64,000 bases of DNA from Massilia polaris (GTDB lineage Bacteria > Pseudomonadota > Gammaproteobacteria > Burkholderiales > Burkholderiaceae_D): the NCBI RefSeq assembly GCF_012927275.1, contig NZ_JABBGG010000009.1:124001-188000 (forward strand), read 5' to 3'. Of the stretch, positions 23,799 through 51,223 are shown piece after piece. The stretch's first letter is position 1. Each line of letters starts with the position of its first letter. Position numbers and translations under genes: made by a program. The notes below the pieces were generated by a model that saw nothing but the letters and a program-made list of their open reading frames with translations, had not been told where the DNA came from and did no database searches.

Positions 23799-23821
23799 AT
23801 TTATATTAACTTCATATAAAT
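23799..23821. promoter_or_regulatory. Shared palindromic operator, copy A (upstream of first TonB receptor)
   Basis: The perfect palindrome ATTTATAT-N7-ATATAAAT (spacer TAACTTC) lies 217 bases before the receptor start at 24039. Fifteen bases further on, TATTTG begins a stretch ending in AATGCATAGT. Copy B at 51197 has the same arrangement. The rest of the 478-base gap 23561-24038 is AT-rich, with no other gene recognised; it presumably holds a long leader. The regulator is unknown. Confidence 0.72.
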
Positions 23822-24038
23822 AAAGCAAAAAAATCGTATTTGTCTTGCAACTTTCCTTAATGCATAGTCCGAGCGATGAGTGCGGAAATCCCTGTTGCGC
23901 AAAAGTCATTTTGGTTGTGTAACAGACAGGAAATATAAGAACAGTACACTGCCGTACTCTGGGCGCCGCCCTACCTTTCGCCGCAGGCGTTTCGCTTGCA
24001 GCAGCAGTATTTACAATAACACTCTAGGGAGTTTTTTA

Positions 24039-26420
24039 ATGCAATCTGCTTTGAACCCAAATCCGACATTGCGCCTGAGCCTGTTGGCTGTGGCATGCCA
24101 GCTGGCTTGCCTGAGCCTGTCGGCAAATGCGCAAACGGCCCCGGCGGCGACGGACGTACCGAAAGTGAATGAAGTCATCATCACCGGCAAGAAAATCGGT
24201 ATGGGCCTGATGGTTGCAGAGGATGCTCCTAAAGCACGTTCGACGATTACCGCGGAAGAGCTGGAAAAACAGCGCCCGACCGGTAACGCCTATGAAGCCC
24301 TGGAAATGATGCCAGCGGTTAACAGCTTCAACCACGACTCGACCGGCCTGTTCGGTGGCGGCCTGACCCTGCGCGGCTTCAACAGCGACCAAATCGGCGC
24401 GACCATCAACGGCGTACCAGTCAACGACTCGGGCAGCTTCTCGGTATTCCCGCAAGAATACGTCGACCAGGAAAACACCTGCAGCCAGTTCGTGACCCAG
24501 GGTTCGACCGACGTCGACTCCCCGCAAGTTGGCGCTACCGGCGGTAACTTCGGCATCATCACCTGCAACCCGGAAAACACCCAGCGCTTCCGCGTGATGC
24601 AGACCCTCGGTCAGCTCAACAGCTACAAGACCTTCCTGCGCTACGACACCGGCCGTCTGGCCGATGGCCGTTCGAAGGCGTTCATCTCCGTGTCGCGCGC
24701 TGAAGCCGACAAGTGGAAGGGCCAGGGCGGCGCCAAGCGCGACCACATCGACGCTGGCTTCAACTACGACTGGGATCGTTTCAACTACGTCCACGCCACC
24801 CTGCTGTGGAACGATGCACTGAACAACAACATCGGCAGCTGGAGCCTGAGCGACCTGAACAAGTTCGGCTACTACCACGAATTCGCGCGCGACTTCACCC
24901 CAGGCCACCTGACGCCAGTGAAGGGCACCGCACAGAAGGAAACCGGCCCATCGCCACAGTACTACAAGCTGTCGACCAACCCGTTCAAGAACGGCATCGC
25001 TTCGGCTGAAGCCAAGTTCCGCCTGGCCGACAACCTCGACCTGAAAGTGCTGCCTTACTACTGGTACGGCTTCGGCAACGGCGGCGTCCAGCAGAAGCTG
25101 CTGTCGGAAACCGGCTTCCTGAACCCGGCCACCGGCAAGATCGGCGCAGCAGCGGACATCAATGGCGACGGCGATACGCTCGACACCATCATCGTCGCCA
25201 ACGCCAGCGTCACCCACACCCAGCGTCCTGGCATCACCTCGTCGCTGACCTACTCGGTCGGCAACCACACGATCCTGGGCGGCTTCTGGTTCGAGCGCGC
25301 CAAGCACGACCAGACCGGTACCGCAGTGCGCGTGCGCGACGACGGCACCCCGGTCGACTACTTCCTGCAAGACGGCGAGATCCTGCGTCCGGACGGCGTG
25401 GCTTACCAGTCGCGTAACTGGAGGACGATCTCCACCGCGTATCAGGCATTCCTGCAAGATACCGTCACGATGATGGACGACCGCCTGACCGTGAATTTCG
25501 GCGTGCGCACCCCGCACATCAAGCGCGACTTCACCAACATCGCCAACGAAGGCACCAACTCGGGCGTTACCTACCAGATCAAGAAGACTTACAACGACGT
25601 GCTGCCGCAGCTGGGCGCCCGCTTCAAGCTGACCGCTGACGACCAGCTGTACGCTTCGATCGCCAAGAACATGAAGGCGCCGCCGAACTTCGTGTTCGCG
25701 ACCACCGGTTCGAACGTCAAGGTGACCAATGGCGTAGCCGCCCTGGTTGGCGACGTGAAGGAAGAGACTTCGTACAACCTCGACGTCGGTATCCGTCACC
25801 AGACCAACAAGTGGATCGGTTCGTTCAACGTCTACTCGATCAACTTCCGTGACCGCCAGGCCACCGCGTTCGATCCGAACACCCTGACCAGCACCCTGAC
25901 CAACGTCGGCAAGGTCAAGAACAACGGTTTCGAAATCGAAGCAGGCAACACCCCGTTCCACGGCTGGTCGTTCTACGGTTCTTACGGTTACAGCAAGAGC
26001 GAAGTTGAAAACGACCTGCGCGTAAGCGCAACCGCGTTCCTGCCGACCGCTGGCAAGGAAATGCCACTGACCCCACGCCACAAGGCTGGCCTGTCGGCTG
26101 AGTACCAGCAAGGCGCGTTCTGGATTCGCGGCAAGGCGAAAGCCACCGGCAAGCAGCAGGCTACCCTGACCAACGACGAAGTCGTTCCAGGCTACACCGT
26201 GTTCGGCATCGACGGCGGCTACACCTTCGCTAACTTCGGCATCTTCAAGCGTCCGAAGCTGAACGTCAACGTCAGCAACATCACGAGCAAGCAGTACCGC
26301 AACCCGTCGTCGCAGAGTGTGACCAATGCTGTTGCCTACCCAGGCGCATCGGCACGCACTGTGTTCTACTACCTCGGCGCGCCACGCTTCGCTTCGGTCA
26401 CGCTGTCGGTCGACATCTAA
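24039..26420 (+). CDS. TonB-dependent outer-membrane receptor (candidate nucleoside/nucleotide uptake)
   Basis: Outer-membrane active transporter of 793 aa. The ATG at 24039 (TAGGGA upstream) opens a signal peptide ending ANAQTAPA. A TonB-box-like EVIITGKK is followed by the plug domain (LEKQRPTGNAYEALEMMPAV, GLTLRGFNSDQIGATINGVP) and a long beta-barrel ending in an aromatic-rich strand (FASVTLSVDI). The substrate cannot be read from sequence. It sits between genes for an exported adenosine deaminase and exported nucleotidase/nuclease, and shares a palindromic operator with the nucleoside phosphorylase operon. I therefore infer uptake of nucleosides, nucleotides or oligonucleotides. The upstream open frame to 23880 is not family-like. 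Confidence 0.85.
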   Translation: MQSALNPNPTLRLSLLAVACQLACLSLSANAQTAPAATDVPKVNEVIITGKKIGMGLMVAEDAPKARSTITAEELEKQRPTGNAYEALEMMPAVNSFNHDSTGLFGGGLTLRGFNSDQIGATINGVPVNDSGSFSVFPQEYVDQENTCSQFVTQGSTDVDSPQVGATGGNFGIITCNPENTQRFRVMQTLGQLNSYKTFLRYDTGRLADGRSKAFISVSRAEADKWKGQGGAKRDHIDAGFNYDWDRFNYVHATLLWNDALNNNIGSWSLSDLNKFGYYHEFARDFTPGHLTPVKGTAQKETGPSPQYYKLSTNPFKNGIASAEAKFRLADNLDLKVLPYYWYGFGNGGVQQKLLSETGFLNPATGKIGAAADINGDGDTLDTIIVANASVTHTQRPGITSSLTYSVGNHTILGGFWFERAKHDQTGTAVRVRDDGTPVDYFLQDGEILRPDGVAYQSRNWRTISTAYQAFLQDTVTMMDDRLTVNFGVRTPHIKRDFTNIANEGTNSGVTYQIKKTYNDVLPQLGARFKLTADDQLYASIAKNMKAPPNFVFATTGSNVKVTNGVAALVGDVKEETSYNLDVGIRHQTNKWIGSFNVYSINFRDRQATAFDPNTLTSTLTNVGKVKNNGFEIEAGNTPFHGWSFYGSYGYSKSEVENDLRVSATAFLPTAGKEMPLTPRHKAGLSAEYQQGAFWIRGKAKATGKQQATLTNDEVVPGYTVFGIDGGYTFANFGIFKRPKLNVNVSNITSKQYRNPSSQSVTNAVAYPGASARTVFYYLGAPRFASVTLSVDI

Positions 26421-26446
26421 GCCGCACGATGATGTGACATAATTCG

Positions 26447-26470
26447 ACAGGCCCTTCGGGGCCTGTTTTT
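26447..26470 (+). terminator. Intrinsic terminator after the first TonB receptor
   Basis: ACAGGCCC-TTCG-GGGCCTGT followed by five T lies 26 bases after the receptor stop. It separates the receptor from the 5'-nucleotidase gene, which begins 32 bases later, so the latter depends on read-through or its own promoter. Confidence 0.88.
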
Positions 26471-26501
26471 ACTTGTGCATAGCAAAAGGTATTGACACCC
26501 C

Positions 26502-28190
26502 ATGCGTATTTTCCCGCCCGGCCGCAGCGCGATCCTGCTGGCTACCATCCTGCTGGCCAGTGGCTGCGCCACGCGCCCGCAAGCGCCGCTTGAACTGAAC
26601 GTGGTCGCGCTGAACGACTTCCACGGCCACCTCGAAGGCGGCAAATTCAATTACAAGATCAACGGGCAGCAGGCGACCGTCCAGGCTGGCGGCATCGATG
26701 CCATCGGCGCCGCGCTGCAGGCCTGGCGCGCTGAAGACAAGGACCTGATGTTCGTCGGTGCCGGCGACCTGGTTGGCGCCAGCCCGGCGATGTCGTCGAT
26801 GTGGGCTGATGAAGCGAGCTTGACCGCGCTGTCGATGCTGGGCATGAACGCCAGCTCGGCGGGCAACCACGAGTTCGACCAGGGCCGCACGGAGCTGCTG
26901 CGCCAGCAGCATGGCGGCTGCGAGTCGCACCGCGCCGACAAGGCCTGCAAGCTCGATCCGGACTACCGCGGCGCCTCGTTTACCTACCTGGCCGCGAACG
27001 TGATCGATACGGCCACCGGCAAGACACTCCTGCCGGCTTATAAAATCGAAGAAGCCAAGGGCGTCAAGGTGGCCTACATCGGCGCCGTGTTGAAGGATAC
27101 GCCATCGGTGGTGCTGGCGTCGGGCATCGCGGGGCTGTCGTTCCTCGACGAAGCCGACTCGATCAACAAGGCGCTGGCCGAAGTACGCGCCAAGGGCGCG
27201 ACCGTGTTCGTGGTGCTGATCCACGAAGGCGGCCACACCGATGAAGCCTTCAACGAGCCTGACTGCAAAAATCTCAAGGGCCCGATCGTCAGCATCGCCA
27301 AGCGCCTCGACCCGGAACTGAAACTGATCATCAGCGGCCACACGCACCAGGGATTCCAGTGCAAGGTGGACGGTCGCACCATTACACAGGCCGAGATGGG
27401 CGGGCACGTCCTGTCGCGCATCAAGCTGGCGGTCGATCCTCAGTCGCGCGCGCTGCGCGGCATCACCGTGCGCAATGTCGTGGTCAAGCCGGGCGAATAT
27501 CCGGCCGACCCGCGCCTGGCCGGCTACCTGAAGCAGGTCAGGGAGCGCAGCGAGAGCGCACTGGCGCGCCCGGTCGCGCGCCTCGGCGCCAAATCGATTC
27601 CGCGCAAGCTCAATGCGGCAGGCGAAGCACCGCTTGGCAACCTGATCGCCGATGCGGTCCTCGAAGCCAGCAAAGACGAGGGCGTGCAGATCGCCTTCAT
27701 GAACGGCGGCGGCATGCGCAAGGACCTCGAGGCCGGCGACAACCTTGTCACCACCTACGGCCAGGCACAGGTCGTGCTGCCGTTTTCGAACACCATCGTC
27801 GTGATGGACATGACCGGTGCGCAGCTGCGCACGGCGCTCGAACAGCAGTGGATCCGCAAGCACGCCGACAGCCAGGCCGCGATGCTGCATCCTTCGCGCG
27901 GCTTCGCCTACCGCTGGGACGGCGCCAGGCCGAAAGGGCAGCGCGTGGTGCCGGGCAGCGTCAAGCTGGATGGTGTTGCGCTGGACGAAGCAAAGACCTA
28001 CCGCGTGGCAGTTAATAATTTCCTGGCCGAAGGCGGCGACGGCTTCACGGCATTCGCGCAAGCGGCCAACAAACGCAACACACAGATGCTCGACCTCGAT
28101 GCCTTCGTACGCTACCTGTCCGACAACGACCGCGCCGGCAAGCCGGCGGGCAGCAGCGCCGTCGCTGGCCGCGTCGAGACCACAAAATAA
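26502..28190 (+). CDS. Lipoprotein bifunctional 5'-nucleotidase/metallophosphatase (UshA-like)
   Basis: Removes phosphate from nucleotides outside the cytoplasm (562 aa). The N-terminus is a lipoprotein signal with lipobox LASGC (Cys near residue 24), so the enzyme should be membrane anchored. The metallophosphatase domain (about 35-330) has NDFHGHLEGG, GAGDLVGASP, GNHEFDQGR, VLIHEGGH and ISGHTHQGF. The C-terminal 5'-nucleotidase domain (about 365-530) has APLGNLIADAVLEAS, AFMNGGGMRKDLEAG and the substrate-stacking region FLAEGGDGF. The gene lies between the TonB receptor and an exported S1/P1 nuclease, with 18 bases to the nuclease, suggesting one transcript for stepwise nucleic acid breakdown. 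Confidence 0.93.
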   Translation: MRIFPPGRSAILLATILLASGCATRPQAPLELNVVALNDFHGHLEGGKFNYKINGQQATVQAGGIDAIGAALQAWRAEDKDLMFVGAGDLVGASPAMSSMWADEASLTALSMLGMNASSAGNHEFDQGRTELLRQQHGGCESHRADKACKLDPDYRGASFTYLAANVIDTATGKTLLPAYKIEEAKGVKVAYIGAVLKDTPSVVLASGIAGLSFLDEADSINKALAEVRAKGATVFVVLIHEGGHTDEAFNEPDCKNLKGPIVSIAKRLDPELKLIISGHTHQGFQCKVDGRTITQAEMGGHVLSRIKLAVDPQSRALRGITVRNVVVKPGEYPADPRLAGYLKQVRERSESALARPVARLGAKSIPRKLNAAGEAPLGNLIADAVLEASKDEGVQIAFMNGGGMRKDLEAGDNLVTTYGQAQVVLPFSNTIVVMDMTGAQLRTALEQQWIRKHADSQAAMLHPSRGFAYRWDGARPKGQRVVPGSVKLDGVALDEAKTYRVAVNNFLAEGGDGFTAFAQAANKRNTQMLDLDAFVRYLSDNDRAGKPAGSSAVAGRVETTK

Positions 28191-28208: not shown

Positions 28209-29291
28209 ATGAAAAAACTAGTTTGCGTACTCGCGCTGTCCAGCGCCTTTGCGTCGTTTGACGCGCTTGCATGGGGCCATGAGGGCCACCGCGTGGTCGG
28301 CTCGATCGCCCAGAAGCTGATCAAGGGCAGCAACGCGGAAAAGCAGGTGCAGGCGCTGCTGCTGCCGGGCGAGACGCTCGAGTCGATCACCAACTGGGCC
28401 GATGAAGCCAAGGCCGGCGTGGGCTACCCAGCCGCGACGCCGGAACAGGCTGAATACACGGCAGTCAATCCGAAACACGACGAGTACCACTACGTCAATA
28501 TCCCGTTCCAGAGCCTGCATTACCACCACGGCCACGTCGGCACCACGGAGCACGACATCGTGCAGACGCTGAGCCAGGCCATCGCCGTCCTGCAGGGCAA
28601 GACCGGCCCCGGTGCGAATCCGCACAATTTCACAAGGCGGCAGGCGCTGCTGCTGATCGCCCACATGACCGGCGACATCCACCAGCCGCTGCATGTGGGT
28701 GCGGCCTACGTCGGCAAGGACGGCAGCTTCGTCGTGCCGAAGTCGCGTGCGGAAGTCGACGCGGTGAACATCTTCGATTCGCGCGGCGGTAACAACCTGC
28801 TGCTCGACGACGACAAGCTGTCGGCGCTGTCGAAGGCACTGATCCCCGGCGAAGACAAGCCACTGCCGGAAGGCGCGAAGAAGTGGACCACGCGTCCGTT
28901 CCACTCGTACTGGGACAGTACCTTGGTCAACTACGCGATGCGCCGCATTGCCACAAAAACGCCGGACGAGTTCGCGCAGAAAGTGTTGGGCAACCCTGAC
29001 AACTTCAGCAACTGCGAAATCTGCCCGGTGCTTCCGATCAATACCGCAACAGACCCGTCCATCTGGCCTTACGAGTGGGCGAACGATTCGCTTGAGGTGG
29101 CCAAGCGGGCGTATGATGACGTAAAGCCCGGCAAGATCACTGCGCAGACCAACCGCAAGGGCGAAACGTATTACACCTTCAACCTGGAAACCACGCCGAA
29201 CTATCCGGTTCCGAGCTCGGCCATTGCCAAAACGCAGCTGATCAAGGGTGGCCACAACCTGGCAGCGGTATTGAAGGCAATTTGGCCGTAA
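28209..29291 (+). CDS. Exported S1/P1-type nuclease
   Basis: Zinc-dependent single-strand nuclease/3'-nucleotidase of the S1/P1 family (360 aa). A signal peptide (MKKLVCVLALSSAFASFDA) is cleaved just before LAWGHEGHRVVG, so that the conserved Trp lies at the mature N-terminus as this family requires. Other zinc-site motifs are KHDEYHYVNIP, LLIAHMTGDIHQPLHVG and NIFDSRGGNNLLL. It follows the 5'-nucleotidase after 18 bases. Together they would turn external DNA or RNA into 5'-nucleotides and then nucleosides. Confidence 0.95.
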   Translation: MKKLVCVLALSSAFASFDALAWGHEGHRVVGSIAQKLIKGSNAEKQVQALLLPGETLESITNWADEAKAGVGYPAATPEQAEYTAVNPKHDEYHYVNIPFQSLHYHHGHVGTTEHDIVQTLSQAIAVLQGKTGPGANPHNFTRRQALLLIAHMTGDIHQPLHVGAAYVGKDGSFVVPKSRAEVDAVNIFDSRGGNNLLLDDDKLSALSKALIPGEDKPLPEGAKKWTTRPFHSYWDSTLVNYAMRRIATKTPDEFAQKVLGNPDNFSNCEICPVLPINTATDPSIWPYEWANDSLEVAKRAYDDVKPGKITAQTNRKGETYYTFNLETTPNYPVPSSAIAKTQLIKGGHNLAAVLKAIWP

Positions 29292-30683: not shown

Positions 30684-31469
30684 TCATGTGAAAGCGTAGG
30701 CGTCCATCGCCAGGATGCCGTACTCGTAGCTGGCGTGGAGACGCGCGGCCCGCGCGTTGTCACCCGCCGCGCCCATCGCGACATAGAGCGGCATCAGGTG
30801 CTCGTCGGTCGGGTGATTGCGCTCGGCGTGCGGCGCGCGGGTGCGGTATTCGCGCAGCGCCTGCAGGTCGTTGTCGTCGAGCCGTGCCTTCATCCAGTCG
30901 CCGAAGCCGCTGACCCAGTCCGGAGCAGGGACGTCAATCGGCTGGCCGCGGAACTCGTACAAGTTGTGGGTCAGCGAACCGGAACCGATGATTAACACGC
31001 CTTGCTCGCGCAGCGACGCCAGTGCGCGGCCGATGCGTTCATGCTCCGCCGGTGAGCCGCCGCGCACGATCGAGATCTGCGCGACCGGGATGTCGGCATC
31101 CGGATACATCAGGTGCAGCGGCACCCAGGCGCCGTGGTCGAGGCCACGGGTCGGGCTCTGCGCGACCGCGAGGCCGGCCTGCGTCAGCAGCGATGCGGCG
31201 CGCGCGGCTACCTCTGGCGCGCCGGGCGCCGGGTACTGGATCGCAAACAGCGCGGCGGGAAAACCGCCGAAGTCGTGGATGGTTTCCGGCTTGGTCGCCA
31301 GGCTGACGGCGGGACCGCCGCGCGACTCCCAGTGCGCCGAGGCGACCAGGATCGCTTTCGGACGCGGCAGCGTCCGGCCCAGCTCGCGCAGGAAGCGGTT
31401 GGCGGGACTGTCGACGATGGCGAGCGTCGGCGCGCCGTGGGATACGAATAGTGTCGGTAAGGTGCTCAT
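30684..31469 (-). CDS. Class III extradiol ring-cleavage dioxygenase (DODA/YgiD type)
   Basis: LigB-fold dioxygenase of 261 aa resembling E. coli YgiD (4,5-DOPA extradiol dioxygenase). The start LPTLFVSHGAPTLAI carries the first metal His. Later conserved parts are KAILVASAHWESRG, GLDHGAWVPLHLMYPDA, GSGSLTHNLYEF and HLMPLYVAMGAA. AAGGAGG lies at the right distance from the ATG at 31469. It is divergent from a LysR gene, with about 95 bases between them containing likely regulator sites, and is followed by doxX. The natural catechol substrate is not known. Confidence 0.9.
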   Translation of the reverse strand: MSTLPTLFVSHGAPTLAIVDSPANRFLRELGRTLPRPKAILVASAHWESRGGPAVSLATKPETIHDFGGFPAALFAIQYPAPGAPEVAARAASLLTQAGLAVAQSPTRGLDHGAWVPLHLMYPDADIPVAQISIVRGGSPAEHERIGRALASLREQGVLIIGSGSLTHNLYEFRGQPIDVPAPDWVSGFGDWMKARLDDNDLQALREYRTRAPHAERNHPTDEHLMPLYVAMGAAGDNARAARLHASYEYGILAMDAYAFT

Positions 31470-31563
31470 ACAGGCCTCCTTGAAGTCATGCATCCAGTGT
31501 ATCTGTCTCTATAAATGAGATAAATATGCTTTAATGAGATACTTTGTTCCACATTTAGAGATA

Positions 31564-32454
31564 ATGGATAAGTTCCAGGAAATGCAGGCTTTCGTGGCAG
31601 TGGTGGACGCCGGCAGCTTTGTGCGCGCGGCGGAGGCGCTGGGCAGCTCGAAAGCGGCGGTGTCGCGCTATGTCAGCGAACTGGAAGACCGCCTGGGCGT
31701 GCGCCTGCTCAACCGCACCACGCGCAGCCTGTCGATGACCGACGACGGCCACGCTTTCTACTACCACTGCACCGAGCTGCTGGCGGCGCTGGAGGAAGCC
31801 GAGGGCGACCTGAGTACCCGCAGCGTGGAGGCCAGCGGCCTGCTGCGGGTCAGCGCCCCCGTCACCTTCGGCATCCTGCACCTGGCGCCGTTGTGGGGCG
31901 ACTTCCTCGAGCGCTATCCGAAGGTCAGGCTGGACGTGTCGTTATCGGACCGGGCGGTCGACCTGGTCGAGGATGGCTTCGACCTCGCGATCCGCATCTC
32001 GAGCGTCATGCAGCCGTCGCTGATCGCGCGCCGGCTGGCGACCACGCGGCTGGTGCTGTGCGCGGCGCCTTCGTATCTTGAACGGCGCGGCACCCCGCAG
32101 CACGCGCGCGAACTGGCGCAACACGATGTCGTCGCCTACACCTACGGCGCATTCCGCGACGAATGGACCTTTGATGGCCCCGATGGAGAAGTGACGGTCA
32201 AGGTCAGCCCGCGCCTGTACGCGAATAACGGCGACACCTGCCGCGCCGCCGCGCTGCGCGGGCAGGGCGTGATTTTGCAGCCGGACTTCCTGGTCGGCGG
32301 CGACTTGCGCTCCGGTGAGCTGGTTGAAATCCTGCCGGAATACCGTACCGGTGAACTGGGTGTGTACGCGCTCTACGCGTCGCGCCGCCACCTGCCGCTG
32401 AAACTGCGCTACCTGATCGACTTTCTCGCGGAAGCGTTCAGGCCTGCGGCCTAG
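31564..32454 (+). CDS. LysR-family transcriptional regulator
   Basis: LysR regulator of 296 aa. The N-terminal winged helix is seen in MDKFQEMQAFVAVVDAGSFV and ALGSSKAAVSRYVSELEDRL, and the substrate-binding domain follows from about residue 90. It belongs to the CrgA-like group (LNRTTRSLSMTDDGHAFY). It is transcribed divergently from the YgiD-like dioxygenase gene, which it most likely controls. The shared spacer (31470-31563) is AT-rich with repeated GAGATA-type elements. The ATG at 31564 is chosen over 31534 because the family starts with this methionine. Confidence 0.93.
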   Translation: MDKFQEMQAFVAVVDAGSFVRAAEALGSSKAAVSRYVSELEDRLGVRLLNRTTRSLSMTDDGHAFYYHCTELLAALEEAEGDLSTRSVEASGLLRVSAPVTFGILHLAPLWGDFLERYPKVRLDVSLSDRAVDLVEDGFDLAIRISSVMQPSLIARRLATTRLVLCAAPSYLERRGTPQHARELAQHDVVAYTYGAFRDEWTFDGPDGEVTVKVSPRLYANNGDTCRAAALRGQGVILQPDFLVGGDLRSGELVEILPEYRTGELGVYALYASRRHLPLKLRYLIDFLAEAFRPAA

Positions 32455-33248: not shown

Positions 33249-34217
33249 TCAGCGCGACTTGACGAACGGCTTGCCGATGGCTTTCGGCGCCACCGACTTG
33301 GCCATCAGGCCAGCCAGCACGATCACGGTGACAACGTATGGGATCATCTGGATCAGCGAGCCCGGAATGCGGCCGATGCCCGGCAAATCGACGCCTTCGA
33401 TCTGGATCTGCACGGCGCTGAAGAAGCCGAACATGACGCAGCCGAGGGCCGTGTACACCGGGCGCCAGTTACCGAACACCATTGCTGTCAGCGCCAGGTA
33501 GCCCGCGCCTGCCGACATATCGCGCAGGAAGAAGCCGCTCTGCACAATCGCCAGGTAAGCGCCCGAGAACGAGCACAGGATGCCGCACACGAGCATCGCC
33601 ATGTAGCGGGTGCGCTCGACGCTGATGCCCGCTGCGTCGGCCGCATGCGGGTTCTCGCCGCAGGCGCGCAGGCGCAGGCCGAAGCGGCTGTGGTAAATCA
33701 CCCAGTGCACCAGCGGGATCAGCGCGAACGCCAGGTACACCAGCGCCGAATGGCCGCCGATCACATGGCCGTAGAACCAGCCGAGGAAGGGCACGTCGGC
33801 CAGCGCCGCGGTGCCTGGCAATACGATGTCGAGCAGGCGCGCTTCGCCCAGGTCCGGCGTGCGGCCGCCCTGCTGGTAGAAGAACTGCGCCAGAACGAAG
33901 GTCAGGCCGCTCATGGCGATGTTGATCGCGATGCCACCCACCAGCTGGTTGCCCTTTTGCGTGATGCTGACATAACCCTGCAGCAGCGCCAGCGCGGCCG
34001 ATACGGCGACGCCTGCAGCCACGCCGTACCAGGCGTTCTGCGTGGTGTAAGCGACGGCGGCGGAGACAAAGGCGCTGGCGAGCATCTTGCCCTCGAGCGC
34101 GAGGTCGATCACGCCGCTGCGTTCAGCGAACAGGCCGGCCATCGCCGCGAAAATCAGTACCGGCGCATTGCGGATGGTCGATACGACGATGCTGGCTAAG
34201 TGGAAGTCTTCGAACAT
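33249..34217 (-). CDS. Nucleoside-type ABC transporter permease 2 (BPD_transp_2)
   Basis: Inner-membrane permease of 322 aa of the branched-chain/ribose type used by BMP-family nucleoside importers (NupQ/YufQ-like). Typical segments are FAERSGVIDLALEGKMLASA near residue 30, the GMSGLT-like region LVGGIAINIAMSGLTFVLAQ, and LRACGENPHAADAAGISVER, which includes the ATPase-docking loop. It is the last gene of the bmp-ATPase-permease-permease locus, 4 bases after the other permease. Nucleoside specificity is inferred from family and context. Confidence 0.88.
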   Translation of the reverse strand: MFEDFHLASIVVSTIRNAPVLIFAAMAGLFAERSGVIDLALEGKMLASAFVSAAVAYTTQNAWYGVAAGVAVSAALALLQGYVSITQKGNQLVGGIAINIAMSGLTFVLAQFFYQQGGRTPDLGEARLLDIVLPGTAALADVPFLGWFYGHVIGGHSALVYLAFALIPLVHWVIYHSRFGLRLRACGENPHAADAAGISVERTRYMAMLVCGILCSFSGAYLAIVQSGFFLRDMSAGAGYLALTAMVFGNWRPVYTALGCVMFGFFSAVQIQIEGVDLPGIGRIPGSLIQMIPYVVTVIVLAGLMAKSVAPKAIGKPFVKSR

Positions 34218-34221: not shown

Positions 34222-35322
34222 TTATCCTTTCACCGGCGCCGTCGTGCGCGTCATGTTGATCATCCTGAGGATCGCGGGGCCGTACAGGTTTTCCATCGCG
34301 CCGCAGAACAAGATGATCAGGCCCTGGATGAAGATGAAGGTCTCTTGCGGGATGTTCGGTTTCTCCAGCGACAGGTCGAAGCCGCCCTGGATCAGCGCGC
34401 CGAACAGCACCGACGACAGGAAGATGCCGACCGGGTGCTGGCGTCCCATCAGCGCAATCGCGATGCCGACAAAGCCCGCGCCTGCCGGGAAGTTCAGCGA
34501 CAGGTAGTGGGTCGAGCCCATGATCGAATTGACCGCGCCGAGGCCGGCGAGGGCGCCGGAGATCAGCATCGCGACGATGATCATGCGGCTGATCGACACG
34601 CCGGCGTAGTGCGCCGCGCTCTGGTTCAGGCCAGTGGCGCGCAGCTTGTAGCCCCACGACGAACGCCACATCATCACGCCGTAGATCGCCAGCGCGATGA
34701 TCGCGATGATGAAGCTGACGTTAAGCGGGGTGTCGCCCAGCGCCGGGAACCACTGGCCCAGGCGCGGCATTTCGCCGGCGGCGGAAAACACGCGGCTGGC
34801 CGGATTCTGCTGGCCTTCAGGGATCAGGTATTTGACGATGATGAAGTTCATCAGGCTGGCGGCGATGAAGTTGAACATGATCGTCGTGACCACCACATGG
34901 CTTCCGCGTTTGGCCTGAAGGTAGCCGGGCAGGAACGCCCAGCCGGCGCCGAACACCGCCGCGCCCAGCATCGCGGCCGGGATCAGCAGGAAGGCAGGGA
35001 GGGTCTGGTCGAGGGTGAGCATGACGACGGTCAGCCCGAGGCCGCCGAGGTACAGCTGGCCTTCGCTGCCGATGTTGAACAGGCCTGCCTTCATCGCGAT
35101 CGACACCGACAGGCCGGTGAAGATGAAGGTGCTGGCGTAGAACAGCGTGTAGGCCAGGCCTTCCGGATTGAGCACCGCGCTGTCGATCAGGATCGCCAGC
35201 GATTCGGTCGGGCTTTCGCCCAGCAGGTGGATCACCAGCGCGGCGACCAGCAGCGCGGATACCAGGTTCAGGACGGGCAGGACGAAACCTGTGGCCCAGC
35301 GTGGGAGTTCAGTGATTTTCAT
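34222..35322 (-). CDS. Nucleoside-type ABC transporter permease 1 (BPD_transp_2)
   Basis: Partner permease of 366 aa (NupP/YufP-like). It shows GLFNIGSEGQLYLGGLGLTV, the docking loop LRATGLNQSAAHYAGVSISR, and LNFPAGAGFVGIAIALMGRQ with the conserved GxxGIAVALMG motif. Its start overlaps the ATPase gene by 4 bases and its stop is 4 bases from the next permease, so these three genes are translationally coupled. Together they would move nucleosides across the inner membrane. Confidence 0.9.
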   Translation of the reverse strand: MKITELPRWATGFVLPVLNLVSALLVAALVIHLLGESPTESLAILIDSAVLNPEGLAYTLFYASTFIFTGLSVSIAMKAGLFNIGSEGQLYLGGLGLTVVMLTLDQTLPAFLLIPAAMLGAAVFGAGWAFLPGYLQAKRGSHVVVTTIMFNFIAASLMNFIIVKYLIPEGQQNPASRVFSAAGEMPRLGQWFPALGDTPLNVSFIIAIIALAIYGVMMWRSSWGYKLRATGLNQSAAHYAGVSISRMIIVAMLISGALAGLGAVNSIMGSTHYLSLNFPAGAGFVGIAIALMGRQHPVGIFLSSVLFGALIQGGFDLSLEKPNIPQETFIFIQGLIILFCGAMENLYGPAILRMINMTRTTAPVKG

Positions 35323-36848
35323 GATTTATGCATTCCGCCCATCAGCAGGCCGAGGCGGGTGGTGTCGAATTCTTCAATCTTAAGTTCGCCGGTGATGCGT
35401 CCGCCCGACATGACGATGATGCGGTCGGCCAGCGCCCGCACTTCTTCCAGTTCCACCGACACCAGCAGGATGGCGACGCCTTCGTCGCGCATCTTCAGCA
35501 ATTGGGTGTGGATGCTTTCGATGGTGCCGATGTCGACGCCGCGGGTCGGCTGGCCGACCAGCATCAGCTTCGGCTTGGCCGACACTTCGCGCGCGATCAC
35601 CACCTTCTGCTGGTTGCCGCCCGAGAGCAGGCCGATGCGCAGTTCAGGGTCGGAAGGGCGCACGTCGAAAGCCTTGAGCAGGCCGGCGCAGCGCGCCGCG
35701 ATCGCCTCGAAGTCGAACAGGCCGGCGCGGTTCGTGACGCGGTCCTGGTAGCCGAACACGGTGTTCTGCATGACCGAAAAGTCTTTGATCACGCCGTCGC
35801 GCAGGCGGTCTTCCGGAATGTGGGCGATGCCCAGGTCGCGGAACACCTTCGGCAGGCCGTCGGCGTCGCCGCGCTTTGCGTAGGGCAGGTCGCTGCCGAG
35901 GAATTCAACGTTGCCGGACGTCGGCAGGCGCATTCCCGACAAAATCTGCAGCAGTTCGCTTTGGCCGTTGCCCGAGACGCCCGCGATTGCGACGATTTCG
36001 CCGGCGCGCAAGGTGAAGTCGATGTCGGCCAGCAGGCGCACGCCCTGCTTGTCGGTCAGCTGCAGGCTCTTGACCGTCATGACCGGCGCGCCAGGGTTGT
36101 AAGGGGCGCGCGGCAGTTCGCTCTGGATCGGGCGGCCGACCATCATGTTGGCCAGTTCTTCCTTCGAGGTGGTGGCGGTAGCCACAGTGCCGATCACGCG
36201 GCCGGCGCGCATCACCGTCACCTGGTCGGTGATTTCCATGATCTCGCCGAGCTTGTGGGTGATCAGGATGATGGTCTTGCCCTGTTCCTTGAACAGCCGC
36301 AGGATCTCGAACAGCGACGCGGTTTCCTGCGCCGTCAGCACCGCGGTCGGTTCGTCGAGGATCAGGATCTCGGCGCTGCGGTAGATCTGCTTGAGGATCT
36401 CGACGCGCTGCTGCGCGCCGACCGACAGGTCTTCGATTTTCGCCAGCGGGTCGACGTCGAGGCGGTAGCGCGCGCAGATCTCGCGCAGCTTCGCCTCGGT
36501 CTCGCTGCGCTTGGCAGCCAGCTTGAATCCGCCTTCGGTGCCGAGCATGACGTTATCGAGGACGGTGAAATTCTCGACCAGCATGAAGTGCTGGTGCACC
36601 ATGCCGATGCCCAGTTCGATCGCTTCGTGGCTGGTGCGGATATTGCGCTCGTGGCCGTCGATCAGCGTCTCACCGCTGTCGGCGTTGTAGTAGCCGTACA
36701 GGATGCTCATCAAAGTGGACTTGCCCGCGCCGTTTTCCCCAATCACGCCATGGATCGAGCCCTTGGCGATGGAGAAGCTGACGCCGGCGTTCGCCTGCAC
36801 GGCCCCGAAGGCCTTGCTGATATTGCGAAATTCTACGGCTGGCTGCAT
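35319..36848 (-). CDS. Nucleoside-type ABC transporter ATPase with two ATPase domains
   Basis: Double ATPase of 509 aa, like NupO/YufO and RbsA. The first domain has Walker A GENGAGKSTLMSILYG, signature LSVGAQQRVEILK and Walker B ILILDEPTAVL. The second has the degenerate A loop GVSGNGQSELLQ, signature LSGGNQQKVVIARE and the LMLVGQPTRGVDIG segment. It lies between the binding-protein gene (89 bases away, with a hairpin between) and the coupled permease. The start is the ATG at 36848 (MQPAVEFRNISKAFG). Confidence 0.92.
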   Translation of the reverse strand: MQPAVEFRNISKAFGAVQANAGVSFSIAKGSIHGVIGENGAGKSTLMSILYGYYNADSGETLIDGHERNIRTSHEAIELGIGMVHQHFMLVENFTVLDNVMLGTEGGFKLAAKRSETEAKLREICARYRLDVDPLAKIEDLSVGAQQRVEILKQIYRSAEILILDEPTAVLTAQETASLFEILRLFKEQGKTIILITHKLGEIMEITDQVTVMRAGRVIGTVATATTSKEELANMMVGRPIQSELPRAPYNPGAPVMTVKSLQLTDKQGVRLLADIDFTLRAGEIVAIAGVSGNGQSELLQILSGMRLPTSGNVEFLGSDLPYAKRGDADGLPKVFRDLGIAHIPEDRLRDGVIKDFSVMQNTVFGYQDRVTNRAGLFDFEAIAARCAGLLKAFDVRPSDPELRIGLLSGGNQQKVVIAREVSAKPKLMLVGQPTRGVDIGTIESIHTQLLKMRDEGVAILLVSVELEEVRALADRIIVMSGGRITGELKIEEFDTTRLGLLMGGMHKS

Positions 36849-38425: not shown

Positions 38426-38450
38426 CATTTATATCGATGAAGTATAAATG
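38426..38450. promoter_or_regulatory. Shared palindromic operator, copy C (upstream of second TonB receptor)
   Basis: CATTTATA-N9-TATAAATG, i.e. ATTTATAT-N7-GTATAAAT with one mismatch to copies A and B, lies 174 bases before the receptor start at 38625. A possible promoter follows: TTTACA at 38459-38464, then TAGCAT after 16 bases. The rest of the gap 37933-38624 contains no recognisable gene. No second copy was found on the side facing the nucleoside-binding protein gene. Confidence 0.68.
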
Positions 38451-38624
38451 AAAAGATATTTACACCACTTTTGGACGTGCTAGCATCGATTTTTCTTTGC
38501 TTATTAAAAAGAAAAACCCCGTTGGTGCGGCTAGAATCACGCCGAAATTTGTGCGCTGCATAAGCGCTTGCCGGGAAGATGCCGGTGCCGTCGAGATTGA
38601 TTATTTCAAAAAGGGAACTCCACA

Positions 38625-41522: not shown

Positions 41523-41601
41523 TATTTAGGAACAGCAACGAGTCGATGGCTGCTGCTCGATGGTAATATCTTCGCCGCCCCTTTCCCGCAGTGGAGAATC
41601 A

Positions 41602-42294
41602 ATGCAATCAGCAGTCAACTTGTGGCCCCTGGCCGGCGTGGCAGTCATCGTGCTTGGTTTCGTCCTGCGCGCGCACCCGGTACTGGTGGTGGTAGCCGCT
41701 TGCGGCGTTACCGGCGTCGCCGCCGCGATGCCGGTCGAAACCATCCTCGCTTCCATCGGCACCGCCTTCATCAAAACCCGCAACCTGCCGCTGATCCTGT
41801 TGCTGCCTTTGGCTGCCATCGGCCTGCTCGAACGCTTCGGCCTCAAAGAACACGCGCAGGCCTCGATCGCCAAAATCCGCTCCGCGACCGCCGGCCGCTT
41901 GCTGATCTTTTACCTGTTCGTGCGCGAACTGACCGCTGCCGGCGGACTGACCAGCCTTGGCGGACACGCGTCAATGGTGCGGCCGCTGGTTGCGCCGATG
42001 GCTGAAGCGGCCGCCGAACTGCAGAACGCCTCGCTGCCTGAGAAAATGCGCTACCAGATCCGCGCGATGGCTGCGGCGACCGACAACGTCGGGCTGTTCT
42101 TCGGCGAGGACATATTCGTGGCTTTCGGCGCGATCGTGCTGATGCAGACCATCCTCAACGCCGAAGGCATCGCAGTCAATCCGCTGCACATGGCGCTGTG
42201 GGGCATACCGACGGCGATTACGGCGTTCATCATCCATGCATGGCGTCTCGGCCGCCTTGACGGCCAGATCCGCCGCGCGGGAGCAGCGCAATGA
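41602..42294 (+). CDS. DUF969 family membrane protein (putative 5-oxoproline transporter part)
   Basis: Polytopic membrane protein of 230 aa of the DUF969 family. Recognisable stretches are LWPLAGVAVIVLGFVLRAHP, the IGTAFIKTRNLPLILLLPLA segment and FGLKEHAQ. The start at 41602 follows a GGAG site. It overlaps the DUF979 gene by 4 bases, and both are followed by pyroglutamyl-peptidase. This conserved trio has been linked to 5-oxoproline (pyroglutamate) metabolism, with the two DUF proteins as a candidate permease; direct transport evidence is not known to me. Confidence 0.85.
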   Translation: MQSAVNLWPLAGVAVIVLGFVLRAHPVLVVVAACGVTGVAAAMPVETILASIGTAFIKTRNLPLILLLPLAAIGLLERFGLKEHAQASIAKIRSATAGRLLIFYLFVRELTAAGGLTSLGGHASMVRPLVAPMAEAAAELQNASLPEKMRYQIRAMAAATDNVGLFFGEDIFVAFGAIVLMQTILNAEGIAVNPLHMALWGIPTAITAFIIHAWRLGRLDGQIRRAGAAQ

Positions 42295-43247
42295 TCATCC
42301 TGCTCGACTACTTCTACCTCGTGCTGGGCGCGATGCTGACGATCGCCGCCTTCATGACGCTGCGCGACAAGCACAACCCGAAGCGCTTCACCACCGCGCT
42401 GTTCTGGGGCCTGTACGCCGTCGTGTACCTGGCCGGCGAACGCATTCCGCCGGTGGCCGCAGGCGCCATCATGGTGCTGATGGCCCTGATCGCCGGCTTC
42501 GGCGGCATCGCGCTGGGCAAGTATGGCTTCCTGCCCGAAGGCGAACGCCGCGCCAGTGCAAAGCGCCTTGGTAACCGCCTGTTCATCCCCGCGCTGATCA
42601 TCCCCATCGTGACGATGCTCGGCTCGACGCTGCTCAAGGACGTGACCATCAACGGCATGCTGCTGTTCGAGCAAAAGCACCTGACGCTGGTGGCGCTTGG
42701 CTGCGCATCGCTGCTGGCAGTGGCCGCAGCGTGCTGGCTGACCCGCGCGACGCCAGTGCAGGGCATGCGCGAATGGCGCCGCCTGGTCGACTCGATTGGC
42801 TGGGCGCTGGTCCTGCCGCACATGCTGGCGGTGCTCGGGCTGCTGTTCTCCGAGGCGGGCGTGGGCAAGGCAGTGGCGCATATCGCCACCTCGTACGTCG
42901 CGATGGATTCGCGGTTTATCGCCGTCGCGGTGTACTGCATCGGGATGGCGCTGTTCACTATCGTAATGGGAAATGGTTTCGCGGCCTTCCCTGTCATGGC
43001 GGGTGGCGTCGGCATTCCGATCCTGATCGGGGTGTATGACGCCAATCCCGCAGTGATGGCGGCCATCGGGATGTTCAGCGCATATTGCGGAACCCTGATG
43101 ACGCCAATGGCCGCCAACTTCAACATCGTTCCGGCCGTACTGCTTGAACTGCCCGACAAGAACGCGGTGATCAAGGCGCAGATCCCGACGGCGCTGCCCC
43201 TGCTGGGTGCGAACATCCTGCTGCTGTATTTTTTGATGAACATGTAA
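42291..43247 (+). CDS. DUF979 family membrane protein (putative 5-oxoproline transporter part)
   Basis: Polytopic membrane protein of 318 aa of the DUF979 family, with about nine helices. Conserved-looking parts are [60 protein letters not shown] and [20 protein letters not shown], which resembles ion-transporter hairpins. It overlaps DUF969 by 4 bases, and pcp follows after 13 bases. The pair likely forms one permease. Confidence 0.85.
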
Positions 43248-43260
43248 CGAGGCGATTGCC

Positions 43261-43905
43261 ATGACCAAGACAGTGCTGCTGACCGGCTTCGAGCCATTCA
43301 ACAAGGAGACCATCAACCCCGCATGGGAAGCCGTGCGCGCGCTGGCCGGTTGGGAAGGGGAGGGCTTTGTCGTCGAAGTGCTCCAGCTGCCTTGTGTATT
43401 CGGCCACGCGCAGGAAGTGCTGAAGGACGCGATCGCATCGCTGCAGCCGGACGTGGTGATCGCCGTCGGCCAGGCTGGCGGCAGGGTGGACATGTCGGTC
43501 GAACGAGTCGCGATAAACGTCGACGACGCGCCGATTCCGGATAACGCGAAAAAACAGCTGGTCGACAAGCCGATTGTGGCGGATGGTCCCGCTGCCTATT
43601 TCTCGACGCTGCCGATCAAGGCTATCGTGCGTGCCTTGCGTGATGCGGGACTGCCGGCGTCGGTGTCGCAGACCGCCGGCACCTTCGTATGCAACCACGT
43701 GTTCTACGGATTGATGCACCACACCGAAGGATCAGGCATCAAGGCTGGCTTCATCCACATTCCTTACCTGCCGCAGCAGGCAGCTGCGCATCCAGGCGCT
43801 GCGAGCATGTCGCTGGCCGAAGTCGTAAGAGGGTTGAAGATTGCGGTCGATGCGGCACTGGCGCCGGCGGTCGATATCAGCGAAGTCGGCGGCGCCACAC
43901 ATTAA
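43261..43905 (+). CDS. pcp: Pyroglutamyl-peptidase I (pyrrolidone-carboxylate peptidase)
   Basis: Cysteine peptidase (C15) that removes N-terminal pyroglutamate from peptides, releasing 5-oxoproline. At 214 aa it has the expected size. The family start [20 protein letters not shown], the catalytic Glu region [18 protein letters not shown], the nucleophile in [16 protein letters not shown] and the His in [12 protein letters not shown] are all present. It is the third gene of the DUF969-DUF979-pcp operon, which suggests that peptide breakdown and transport of pyroglutamate are coupled. Confidence 0.96.
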
Positions 43906-46822: not shown

Positions 46823-46823
46823 A

Positions 46824-47775: not shown

Positions 47776-48678
47776 CTAAGGCGGTGTGGGATTCAGGATA
47801 TTCAGGAATGCGCGTATGACCGGTGCGTCATCCTGCGTCGTGTATGCAATGTACAGGTTTGCCGACGGCGGATTGGTTTTGATGGGCAGGAAGCGTACGC
47901 CCGGCCAGCCGATCCTGCCGGTCGTCTCGGGCATCAGCGCGACGCCAAGGCCGACGCCGACCATCGCCAGCAAGGTCTGCGGCTCGTTCGCTTCCTGGAA
48001 AATCGTCGGCTGGAAGCCCGCGTTGACGCAGCACTGGATCAGGTAGCGCGGGAAGGCCGACTTGTCGAGGGCCAGGGTCAGCATTGGCTCGTTGGCCAGG
48101 TCCGTCAGCTCGATGTGCGGACGCGTGGCCAGCGGGTGGTGCTCGTTCACCGCCACGCACACGTTCTCGCGGAAGCACAGCTCCTGGCGCAGGTTGTCGT
48201 TCCTTAGCTCGTCGTCGTTCATCTTCGGCTCGCGCCAGAATCCAACGTCGATCTGCTTGGCGCGCAGCGCTTCATATTGGACGGTCGGGCCCAGCTCGTG
48301 CAGCGTCCACGTCACGCGCGGGAATTTGGTCTGGAATTCTTCCAGCAGGCTCGGGATCGGGCCCCACATCGCGGACCCCACGATGCCGACCCGCAGCCGG
48401 CCGACTTCACCACGGTCGATCTGGCGGATCGTGTCGATCGTCATCCGCATCTTGGCCAGCATGTCGGACGCTTCGCCCATCAGCGCCTTGCCCGCCACCG
48501 TCAGCTCAAAGGTGCGGGTGGTGCGGGCGAACAGCTTCACGCCAAGTTCGCTCTCCAGCTTCATGATCTGCTGCGACAGCGGAGGCTGCGAGATGTGCAG
48601 GCGTTCAGCCGCACGGCTGAAGCTTTTTTCTTCAGCGACGGCGAGGAAGTACTTCAGCTGCTTGAGGTCGATCGACAT
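47776..48678 (-). CDS. LysR-family regulator linked to pseudouridine genes
   Basis: LysR regulator of 300 aa. The winged helix reads LKQLKYFLAVAEEKSFSRAA and HISQPPLSQQIMKLESELGV; the effector domain follows. It is only 15 bases downstream of psuG on the same strand and so appears to be the third gene of psuK-psuG-lysR. Control of pseudouridine catabolism is a reasonable guess, though it is also possible that it is only co-transcribed. Family features resemble BenM/CatR-type regulators. Confidence 0.9.
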   Translation of the reverse strand: MSIDLKQLKYFLAVAEEKSFSRAAERLHISQPPLSQQIMKLESELGVKLFARTTRTFELTVAGKALMGEASDMLAKMRMTIDTIRQIDRGEVGRLRVGIVGSAMWGPIPSLLEEFQTKFPRVTWTLHELGPTVQYEALRAKQIDVGFWREPKMNDDELRNDNLRQELCFRENVCVAVNEHHPLATRPHIELTDLANEPMLTLALDKSAFPRYLIQCCVNAGFQPTIFQEANEPQTLLAMVGVGLGVALMPETTGRIGWPGVRFLPIKTNPPSANLYIAYTTQDDAPVIRAFLNILNPTPP

Positions 48679-48693
48679 TACGGTGTTTCCTGG

Positions 48694-49625
<932 letters not shown>

Positions 49626-49629
<4 letters not shown>

Positions 49630-50807
49630 TCCTGGTAAAGGGCGTTGAACGGCTGGCCGTCCGCCGTGGGAAGGGGGGCCGCGATCGCGTCGAGCGTATC
49701 GGGGGCGAGGGAAGGGCAGACGGTCTGGGCGCAGGCCACGGTCATCGCGGACAGGACCAGGCCGCGGCGGCACGCGAGGGCGAGGTCGTCGCTGCCCTGG
49801 TAAAGGGTCCAGCTGACGGCCGCTGCGAAGGCGTCGCCCGCGCCGGTTACGTCGACGACGGTGGCGTCGAGGGCGTCAAGGTGGGCGATGCCGCCTGGGC
49901 TGGTGTGGCTGACGCCGCGGGCGCCGCGCGTGACGATGATGTCTTGCGCGCCCTGCGCCTGGATCGTGGCGCAGGCTGTCGCCAGCGCGGCAGCGGAGCC
50001 GACCGCGTGGCCGACCCGCGTTTCCAGTTCGCCTTCGTTCAGGATCAACAGGCGAACGCCGGCCAGGCTGGCGGGCAGGCGGTCCATTTTCGGCTGCGAC
50101 ACGGCGACCACGATGAGCGGCACGCCGAAGCGCTCGGCATCGTCGAGGAGCGACCGCAGCGTGTCGATCGGAAGGTTCATGTCGGCCACGGTGAGCGCAG
50201 CGTTGGCGCGCTGCTGCTGCGTGCGGGAGAGGGCGTCCGGCGTGAGCTGGTCGTACAGGGCCATGTCGGCGAGGGCCAGCAGCATGTCGCCTTGCTGGTC
50301 GAGCACCGCGGTGTAGGTGCCGCTGCCGGTGCCGGCCAACCGCAGGCTGCCGCCCGTGTCGATACCGACGGCTTCGGCCTGCGCCATCAGCGCGGCGCCG
50401 GATGCGTCATCGCCGACCGCCGTGATCAGGCCGGCCGGCGTGCCGAGGCGCGCCAGGTTCTCGGCGATGTTGCGGGCGACGCCGCCGAACGACTCGTGCT
50501 GGCGGGCCGGGTTCGAGGTGCCCATCTGGACGGCGCCGAGGGAGCGCAGCTTGCGGTCGAGGTTGGCCGCGCCGATGCACATGATGGCGCGCCGGTCGGC
50601 CAGCACATAGGCCCGGCCGAGCAGGCGGCGTTCGCGGATCAGGCCCGCGATGTGGCCGGCGACGGCGGAACGCGACAAGCCGAGCTGCACGCCGAGGTCG
50701 TGCTGCGAGATGAAAGGGTTTGCGCGGATCAGTTCGAACAACTGGTCCTTTTTGGAAAGGTCGGTCACATGAGCAGTCGTTAAACAAGTGTTTGAAATGG
50801 TAGACAT
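49626..50807 (-). CDS. psuK: Pseudouridine kinase with N-terminal helix-turn-helix
   Basis: PfkB-family kinase that phosphorylates pseudouridine for PsuG. From the ATG at 50807 the protein has 393 aa. A winged helix-turn-helix occupies residues about 15-70 ([33 protein letters not shown]), as in other PsuK/YeiI-type proteins. The kinase domain has [14 protein letters not shown], the ribose-binding [16 protein letters not shown] and the catalytic [15 protein letters not shown]. The open frame continues upstream to 50912 with no family sequence. The DNA-binding domain suggests that the kinase may also act as a regulator. Confidence 0.93.
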
Positions 50808-50926
50808 TTGTTTGCGCGAAGTCAATCGACTTTTCCCACCGGCTGCACCAATCTGTGGGCAAACGAACGGTTGGGCCGGGAATAAATCCAGATACTTGAT
50901 GGACGCCGCCATATACTGCCAGGAAC

Positions 50927-51115
50927 ATGATGAACAAGACCACTGCCGGCCTCCAGCCGAATTCCCGCATCGAGGCCGAGATCCAGCGCGAGCGCAACGA
51001 GCGCCTGCACAATGACGACGTCAAGACCGGCGCGAACGCCGGCGACGATGTCCGCATCAAGGATGCGCGCGAAAACGACAGCTCGACCAAGCTGCACCGT
51101 CCGCAGGGACGCTGA
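50927..51115 (+). CDS. Small charged hypothetical protein
   Basis: A 62 aa reading frame rich in Arg, Asp, Glu and Asn (IEAEIQRERNERLHNDDVKT), probably soluble and partly helical. AGGAA precedes the two adjacent ATG codons (50927 and 50930). It lies in the gap between psuK and the PNP operon control region. No family is recognised. Its composition is unlike a shadow frame, and a -10-like TATACT lies 12 bases ahead, so it is probably expressed. Confidence 0.5.
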   Translation: MMNKTTAGLQPNSRIEAEIQRERNERLHNDDVKTGANAGDDVRIKDARENDSSTKLHRPQGR

Positions 51116-51196
51116 TCCGGCCAAACTGGCGCCGCCGCCCCGGCTGCGCCCGCATTGATTGTTGAGCCCTGGCTGACCGCAACAGGGCGATCTCGA

Positions 51197-51223
51197 CTAT
51201 TTATATCTCAGCCATATAAATAG
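51197..51223. promoter_or_regulatory. Shared palindromic operator, copy B (upstream of the PNP-deo operon)
   Basis: CTATTTATAT-N7-ATATAAATAG is a perfect palindrome with 10-base arms, 172 bases before the PNP start codon. As in copy A, TATTTG starts exactly 15 bases after the core arm, and AATGCATAGT follows; TTTGCC and CATAGT/TATAAT could serve as promoter elements. This is the best of the three copies. The bound protein is not known. Confidence 0.75.

Follow-up and report, generated by a model that had tools for sequence, protein, structure and literature searches.

In enterobacteria, nucleoside uptake and the deo genes are coordinately controlled by CytR and DeoR, proteins of the LacI and DeoR families. 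LysR-type regulators, for their part, commonly bind a dyad site about 65 bases before the transcription start, often together with a second, weaker site near -35. Here, we analyze a stretch of 64,000 nucleotides from Massilia polaris (contig NZ_JABBGG010000009.1, positions 124,001 to 188,000; hereafter the window), in which three copies of a 23-bp palindrome, termed A, C and B, stand in front of genes for TonB-dependent receptors, an ATP-binding cassette (ABC) importer and nucleoside catabolism. We propose, with a probability of roughly 0.83, that the palindrome is the recognition site of a nucleoside-responsive LysR-type activator of the XapR family, encoded in the same window at 47776-48678, which would drive four promoters from the three sites. 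Such a regulator would be of a different family from CytR and DeoR, and the word TonB does not occur in a paper on CytR/DeoR control (PMC3454398).

The closest described system is that of E. coli XapR, which passages of one paper describe as a xanthosine-induced activator that has a pair of sites on xapAB, the first at -35 and the second farther upstream (PMC7205307). A passage of a 2020 survey rates both sites as low-evidence (PMC7567609). XapR of E. coli has one known target operon, which includes the permease XapB, whereas TonB receptors, a nucleotidase, a nuclease, an ABC importer and deo genes lie behind the sites in M. polaris. What the two systems share is the family of the regulator, the type of the target enzyme and a 2-mismatch palindrome in the xapA promoter. 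Judged from these likenesses, the predicted regulon is an enlarged relative of the known XapR-xapAB system rather than one without precedent. A further point of comparison is offered by BenM and CatM of Acinetobacter, for which parts of PMC6628147 describe a strong Site 1, with the motif T-N11-A within the dyad ATAC-N7-GTAT, plus weaker sites. The palindrome resembles this Site 1 in being an N7-spaced dyad with T-N11-A. Of the sequence matches for which a structure has been solved, moreover, BenM and CatM rank among the best. Nevertheless, the effectors (benzoate/catechol) and genes of BenM and CatM differ from those of the cluster here, and the M. polaris protein falls far below the cut-offs of the corresponding models (141.7 of 600 and 130.5 of 580).

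The palindrome was scanned for as ATTTATAT-N7-ATATAAAT, with mismatches counted against the arms. A rescan of the window returned exactly the three sites of the first-pass annotation, with the same coordinates and mismatch counts (0 for A, 1 for C and 0 for B), and no fourth site even with three mismatches allowed, in agreement with the earlier remark that none was noticed elsewhere; at that threshold, none of 100 shuffles of the window held any site. Across the whole 4.52-Mb genome, only these three sites are found with at most one mismatch, and beyond them there is one site at 2 mismatches and one at 3. About 0.0005 sites with at most one mismatch would be expected in the genome under a first-order Markov model of the window, a figure that is an underestimate, because intergenic DNA is more A+T-rich than the window overall. 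A random genome-wide frequency of the motif, which had been named as the outcome that would speak against a regulon, is thus not what is observed. The palindromes lie 217 (A), 175 (C) and 174 (B) bases before the start codons chosen here. The 2-mismatch site, on C23 (L061), is flanked by open frames that match no window protein, and was set aside.

The pattern is present in 17 of 17 genomes of the genus. Moreover, A, B and C (site classes listed by hand) recur at orthologous places and in the same gene order in all 17, that is, in the clusters of 16 relatives and in the window, and the pattern extends to further genera; absence from orthologous promoters, the other outcome that had been held to tell against a regulon, was not encountered among these 17. 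In the relatives, site A follows an adenosine-deaminase gene and precedes receptor, nucleotidase and nuclease genes, and site B lies between the kinase gene and that for purine nucleoside phosphorylase (PNP). Site C adjoins the operon for the Bmp binding protein and ABC importer in 16/17 genomes (the G006 stretch ends short of the operon) and the second receptor gene in 15/17. Mismatches are few: 0 in 14 genomes and 1 in 3 at A; 0 in 5, 1 in 10 and 2 in 2 at B; and 0 in 12, 1 in 4 and 2 in 1 at C. When only promoters with pairwise identity below 75% are considered (11 for A, 10 for B and 8 for C), the arms retain 1.92, 1.79 and 1.87 bits per position and the spacers 0.71, 0.59 and 0.80, so that the earlier observation of conserved arms with differing spacers holds up across the genus.

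The sites are also linked by a fixed promoter layout. TATTTG lies exactly 15 bases past the palindrome in 51 of 51 cases (17 each for A, B and the minus strand of C), and GCATA(G/T)T lies 40-41 bases past it in 50 of 51 (16/17 at A, 17/17 at B and 17/17 at C on the minus strand). This spacing bears out the common layout that had been suggested for A and B; the 15-base distance to TATTTG was exact as first given, but the gap from there to AATGCATAGT is 16 bases at A and 17 at B, not 17-18. In eight other genomes of the family, TATTTG is at the same place in 14 of the 16 sites examined; of the other two, one reads TATTAG, and the second is a 3-mismatch place, probably not a true site. A promoter scan of the genome for further regulon members, using the right arm followed by 15 bases and TATTTGNCA, recovered the three known promoters (0, 0 and 1 mismatches) and 26 further places, all at 3 mismatches. 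An extra place on C3 (1 mismatch) has no palindrome with three or fewer mismatches.

Site C calls for separate treatment. The first-pass annotation had read it as the site of the second TonB receptor and missed the minus-strand layout, which reads into a nucleoside-type ABC transporter; the receptor would be served by a different element on the plus strand. There, the TATTTG layout is lacking, and TG(C/T)TANNAT is found in 15/17 genomes, with its hexamer 42 bases past the palindrome in 11 and 31-32 bases past it in 4 (the window among these), spacings that differ by about one helical turn. The element is missing from G007 and G011, the same two genomes in which the surroundings of the site revealed no second-receptor relative. 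Around C, the 40 bases on the minus side retain 1.50 bits, versus 0.50 bits for the 100 bases on the plus side, and in two genomes of another genus (G019 and G060) the site stands directly before bmp, with no second-receptor relative found in the fetched stretches. Because the minus side is better kept, the site in G019 and G060 is arranged in this way, and the plus-strand element is absent where there is no receptor, the sequences indicate that site C belongs first to the minus-strand Bmp-ABC operon; it is probably also common to the second TonB receptor, where one exists.

To look further afield, we turned to 80 named loci that encode relatives of the LysR protein; these are close relatives by choice, since they are the best 80 of 209 candidates. 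They come mostly from Massilia, Duganella, Janthinobacterium, Pseudoduganella and Rugamonas, with some metagenome bins, and among these best 80 of 209 the LysR protein is closest to its counterparts in Massilia soli (98%) and in M. agrisoli (97%). One locus (L160) is without a PNP gene; in the other 79, the best palindrome before PNP has 0, 1, 2, 3 and 4 mismatches in 15, 52, 10, 1 and 1 cases, respectively. Before bmp, in 42 loci, it has 0, 1 and 2 mismatches in 20, 9 and 11, with one further locus at 4 and one at 5.

The protein that we propose as reader of the palindrome is LysR-type by its helix-turn-helix (HTH) and substrate-binding domains (Table 1), and shares 40% identity with E. coli XapR across 296 columns. 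It scores 327.9 bits on the NCBIfam model NF007439 (cut-off 290), on which E. coli XapR scores 531 bits and the G034 relative 319.6. This equivalog model (PRK09986) is titled only 'LysR family transcriptional regulator'; we take it to be that of XapR. Scores on other models, such as those of HcaR (167.6) and CynR (142.2), are lower. Conversely, the best match of E. coli XapR in the genome is this protein, at 201.4 bits, with the next paralog at 139.8. In a tree, the protein joins E. coli XapR apart from the paralogs with support of 94/91, just under the 95/80 mark for a firm branch; branches in the tree are long and outgroups scarce, and the row of one paralog (L170) seems to be in the wrong reading frame. 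The model score, the best hit and the tree lead us to place the protein in the family of E. coli XapR. For the linked phosphorylase, identity to E. coli XapA is 66%, and the score on the xanthosine phosphorylase model TIGR01699 is above the cut-off. For E. coli XapB, a search without positive control gave no match in the genome at E 1e-5, and the symporter characterizes the E. coli operon, not the regulator family. When 369 genomes of the class were searched for further XapR relatives, none turned up outside this genome at E 1e-52, and the window protein had matches in 4 of 300 genomes of the order at E 1e-75, all in the same family; in these hunts, at most 6-7 first-look candidates were scored per genome, and relatives may have been missed. 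Sites were checked in those four genomes except G364. In E. coli itself, the 248-base stretch ahead of xapA holds a 2-mismatch palindrome, at a distance of 110 bases from the start codon. Such a palindrome arose by chance in 64 of 20000 simulated regions, which is suggestive of a XapR site, though not proof.

The first-pass annotation named no protein as regulator. A candidate can now be named, and the LysR-type protein is very probably the one that reads the palindrome. Co-occurrence was assessed in 42 of 74 genomes (G000-G073); the 32 others all came from the family draw, and none has a site with at most one mismatch. The LysR protein is matched in 25 of the 42, and in 24 of these, one or more sites with at most one mismatch lie beside nucleoside genes; the 25th, G070, has sites with 3 mismatches and the full layout, likewise beside nucleoside genes. 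Eleven of the 17 genomes without a LysR match are without a site at that threshold. A PfkB-type kinase with a possible winged helix (49626-50912) might instead read the palindrome and repress the operons until nucleoside is present. Its gene adjoins site B, it has a sub-threshold HTH match, and it too occurs in 25/42 genomes, as well as in 79 of the 80 named loci. Nevertheless, the presence of the two proteins differs in two genomes: G034 combines the LysR protein (69% identical) with the full layout and gives no match to the kinase, and G017 has the kinase and neither a LysR match nor a site with at most one mismatch. Both of these genomes therefore favor the LysR protein. In G034, 32 bases lie between the palindrome and the LysR start codon, and the promoter faces the ABC-PNP-deo genes on the opposite side. 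Among the 16 other genus members, identity to the window protein is 65-89% for the kinase versus 86-97% for the LysR protein. Finally, the palindrome has the T-N11-A form of LysR-type sites, and its distance of about 65 bases ahead of the predicted start is that of an activator site, so that we consider a role for the kinase as reader quite improbable.

A regulator need not adjoin its sites, and the reader could be encoded elsewhere, either as a global regulator or as the second LysR protein of the same cluster (31534-32454), whose gene is divergent from a LigB-type gene (30684-31493) and whose best score is on the YafC model, below cut-off. In the fetched stretches, however, the gene for this second protein was found in only 3 of the 16 other genus members (G001, G005 and G010), although all 16 keep the sites, and for a global regulator, three strong sites in 4.52 Mb would be fewer than expected; we regard this possibility as unlikely. 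It is also conceivable that the palindrome is a structural element, such as a terminator stem or a curved A+T-rich upstream element, or that it reflects shared ancestry of duplicated promoters. The palindrome is indeed A+T-rich, and the three promoters have an extended layout in common, such that one may derive from another by duplication. But the dyad arms are kept while the spacers vary, and the palindrome lies upstream of the predicted transcription start and so should not be in the RNA. At C, moreover, the dyad lies between divergent promoters, with a plus-strand distance that shifts by about one helical turn (42 or 31-32) among relatives. Explanations of this kind therefore seem to us highly improbable.

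If the XapR-family protein is indeed the reader, a dimer of it would sit on the palindrome, and binding of a nucleoside (xanthosine, inosine or similar) would enable it to help RNA polymerase start at the four promoters. From site A, it would drive the genes for the TonB receptor, 5'-nucleotidase and nuclease; from site B, the predicted operon PNP-deoB-deoC-aldehyde dehydrogenase-deoA-cdd; and at site C, one palindrome would serve both the divergent ABC importer and the second TonB receptor. The center of the palindrome lies about 65-66 bases before the predicted transcription start at A, B and the minus strand of C; on the plus strand of C, the distance is about 55 bases in the window and 66 in most relatives. 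All of these distances rest on predicted promoters, for which a spacing of 7 bases past the -10 element, a rule of thumb, would put the starts near 23875 (A), 51276 (B), 38372 (C, minus strand) and 38493 (C, plus strand). A second dimer would probably contact a weaker place over the -35 region, at the conserved GTATTTGyCA box, as in other LysR systems. On the minus strand of C, this box matches the palindrome, at an offset of 35, in a mean of 9.8 of 16 arm letters (12 in the window), compared with a mean of 4.1-5.2 over all offsets, and three named loci (L090, L145 and L160) show the resemblance with 3-4 mismatches.

Several observations weigh against the proposal as a whole or against parts of it. 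At an offset of 35, the -35 box matches in a mean of 8.9/16 letters at B, where an offset of 33 does as well, and in only 5.9/16 at A, where three other offsets do better; these comparisons give poor support to the view of the box as a weak palindrome copy. Given such mixed matches, the box may be part regulator contact and part -35 element. Upstream of E. coli xapA, a -35 box is not evident when the sequence is read by eye, and 13 of 200 shuffles of the whole 12-kb E. coli stretch hold a site with three or fewer mismatches. Regarding co-occurrence, this is partly shared inheritance, because the regulator gene lies in the cluster of its targets, and only two genomes separate the LysR protein from the kinase. 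Six genomes without a LysR match (G025, G027, G031, G057, G059 and G067) have a site with at most one mismatch elsewhere; the genes adjoining these sites are unlike the nucleoside genes of the window, the sole exception being an ABC-ATPase match of 36% that lies 8 kb away from the site in G031. Finally, 2 of the 79 named loci have 3-4 mismatches before PNP and 2 of the 42 have 4-5 before bmp, and in G055 there is no site with three or fewer mismatches before bmp.

In G031, the 1-mismatch palindrome (L076, 9195-9217) lies 25 bases before the gene for another, distantly related LysR protein, and may be that protein's own site. Similar boxes may therefore serve other LysR proteins.

The first-pass annotation had pictured a nucleoside regulon that joins outer-membrane uptake to intracellular catabolism, and the genes behind the sites, which are largely nucleoside or nucleotide genes (Table 1), support this picture. 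The Bmp protein would, from its family and the cluster around it, bind a nucleoside, and the Indigoidine_A family protein, judging from the family, is presumably a pseudouridine glycosidase (PsuG). The receptor behind site A is not constant. In 18 of 20 genomes compared, this slot holds a relative (at least 55% identity) of a 1141-amino-acid receptor-like outer-membrane protein (L024, 10254-13679) with a PF25183 barrel, CarboxypepD_reg and a weak Plug match; the window genome and G013 have an unrelated 793-amino-acid TonB receptor instead, the G013 copy being in pieces. No match to the 1141-amino-acid protein was found in the window genome at E 1e-60. Although the receptors differ, the palindrome, the layout and the nucleotidase gene downstream do not. 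That unrelated receptors share one promoter and one downstream nucleotidase argues that they share a task, which is probably nucleoside or nucleotide uptake.

Table 1. Features of the palindrome-linked cluster, in window coordinates; sites, promoters and gene functions are predictions from sequence.
Feature	Position	Strand	Remarks
Palindrome A	23799-23821	no strand	0 mismatches; putative site of XapR-type regulator for receptor/nucleotidase genes
Palindrome C	38427-38449	no strand	1 mismatch; proposed common to two divergent promoters
Palindrome B	51199-51221	no strand	0 mismatches; between kinase-glycosidase-lysR genes and PNP-deo genes
Predicted promoter A	TATTTG 23837-23842 (-35 region); AATGCATAGT 23859-23868 (-10 region)	+	conserved layout
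Predicted promoter B	TATTTG 51237-51242; AATGCATAGT 51260-51269	+	conserved layout
Predicted promoter C(-)	TATTTG 38411-38406; GCATAGT 38385-38379	-	reads into ABC operon
Predicted promoter C(+)	TGCTAGCAT 38478-38486	+	extended -10-like element before second TonB receptor
TonB-dependent receptor, 793 amino acids	24039-26420	+	PF00593, PF07715
5'-Nucleotidase	26502-28190	+	PF02872, PF00149
S1/P1 nuclease	28209-29291	+	PF02265
ABC permeases	33249-34217; 34222-35322	-	PF02653 twice
ABC ATPase	35319-36848	-	PF00005
PnrA-like (Bmp) binding protein	36937-37932	-	PF02608; first gene of ABC operon
Second TonB-dependent receptor, 765 amino acids	38625-40922	+	PF00593, PF07715
LysR-type regulator, XapR family	47776-48678	-	PF00126, PF03466; 300 amino acids; proposed reader of palindrome
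Indigoidine_A family protein	48694-49773	-	PF04227
PfkB-type kinase, possible N-terminal winged helix	49626-50912	-	PF00294; HTH_24 sub-threshold, 19.4 of 21.9 bits
Purine nucleoside (xanthosine-type) phosphorylase	51396-52238	+	TIGR01699, 404.4 bits, cut-off 370.9
deoB phosphopentomutase	52263-53456	+	TIGR01696, above cut-off
deoC aldolase	53453-54409	+	TIGR00126, above cut-off
Aldehyde dehydrogenase	54423-56804	+	PF00171
deoA thymidine phosphorylase	56864-58243	+	TIGR02643
Cytidine deaminase-like protein	58254-58658	+	PF00383, PF08211

Other genes accompany those of the proposed regulon. Before site A (14430-23505) lie genes for allantoinase PuuE, xanthine dehydrogenase, XdhC, guanine deaminase and an adenosine deaminase-like protein, as they do in the relatives fetched; no palindrome with two or fewer mismatches was found before these purine degradation genes in the fetched stretches. 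Inside the nucleoside cluster, at 41560-43905, genes for DUF969, DUF979 and pyroglutamyl peptidase stand in a row, with no evident nucleoside link, and the DUF969 gene is present in 13/16 of the fetched relatives. In G013 (L052, L053), most cluster genes are split by frame breaks, perhaps as a result of a low-quality assembly (completeness 48), and all three palindromes are kept (0, 0 and 1 mismatches).

No description of such a regulon was found among the open-access matches listed (titles and abstract starts; regulon databases were outside the scope), nor was a title on a TonB-dependent receptor for nucleoside uptake found among those listed. For a nucleoside-scavenging cluster that is kept in Massilia, Duganella, Janthinobacterium, Pseudoduganella and Rugamonas, the present analysis proposes a regulator, a box and a set of targets, and it singles out TonB receptors of two unrelated kinds as likely receptors for nucleosides or nucleotides. 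The XapR family, whose sites in E. coli are rated low-evidence in a passage of PMC7567609, is thereby also given a footprint-based box. A broader reading, for and against which we see the odds as about even, is that the XapR family keeps one box across beta- and gamma-proteobacteria, and that in the Oxalobacteraceae this box governs scavenging all the way from outside nucleic acid to pentose metabolism, the TonB receptors being gates dedicated to nucleosides or nucleotides. The conserved unit would then be the promoter rather than the receptor, with unrelated receptors exchanged behind it, and one palindrome would be able to fire two opposite promoters.

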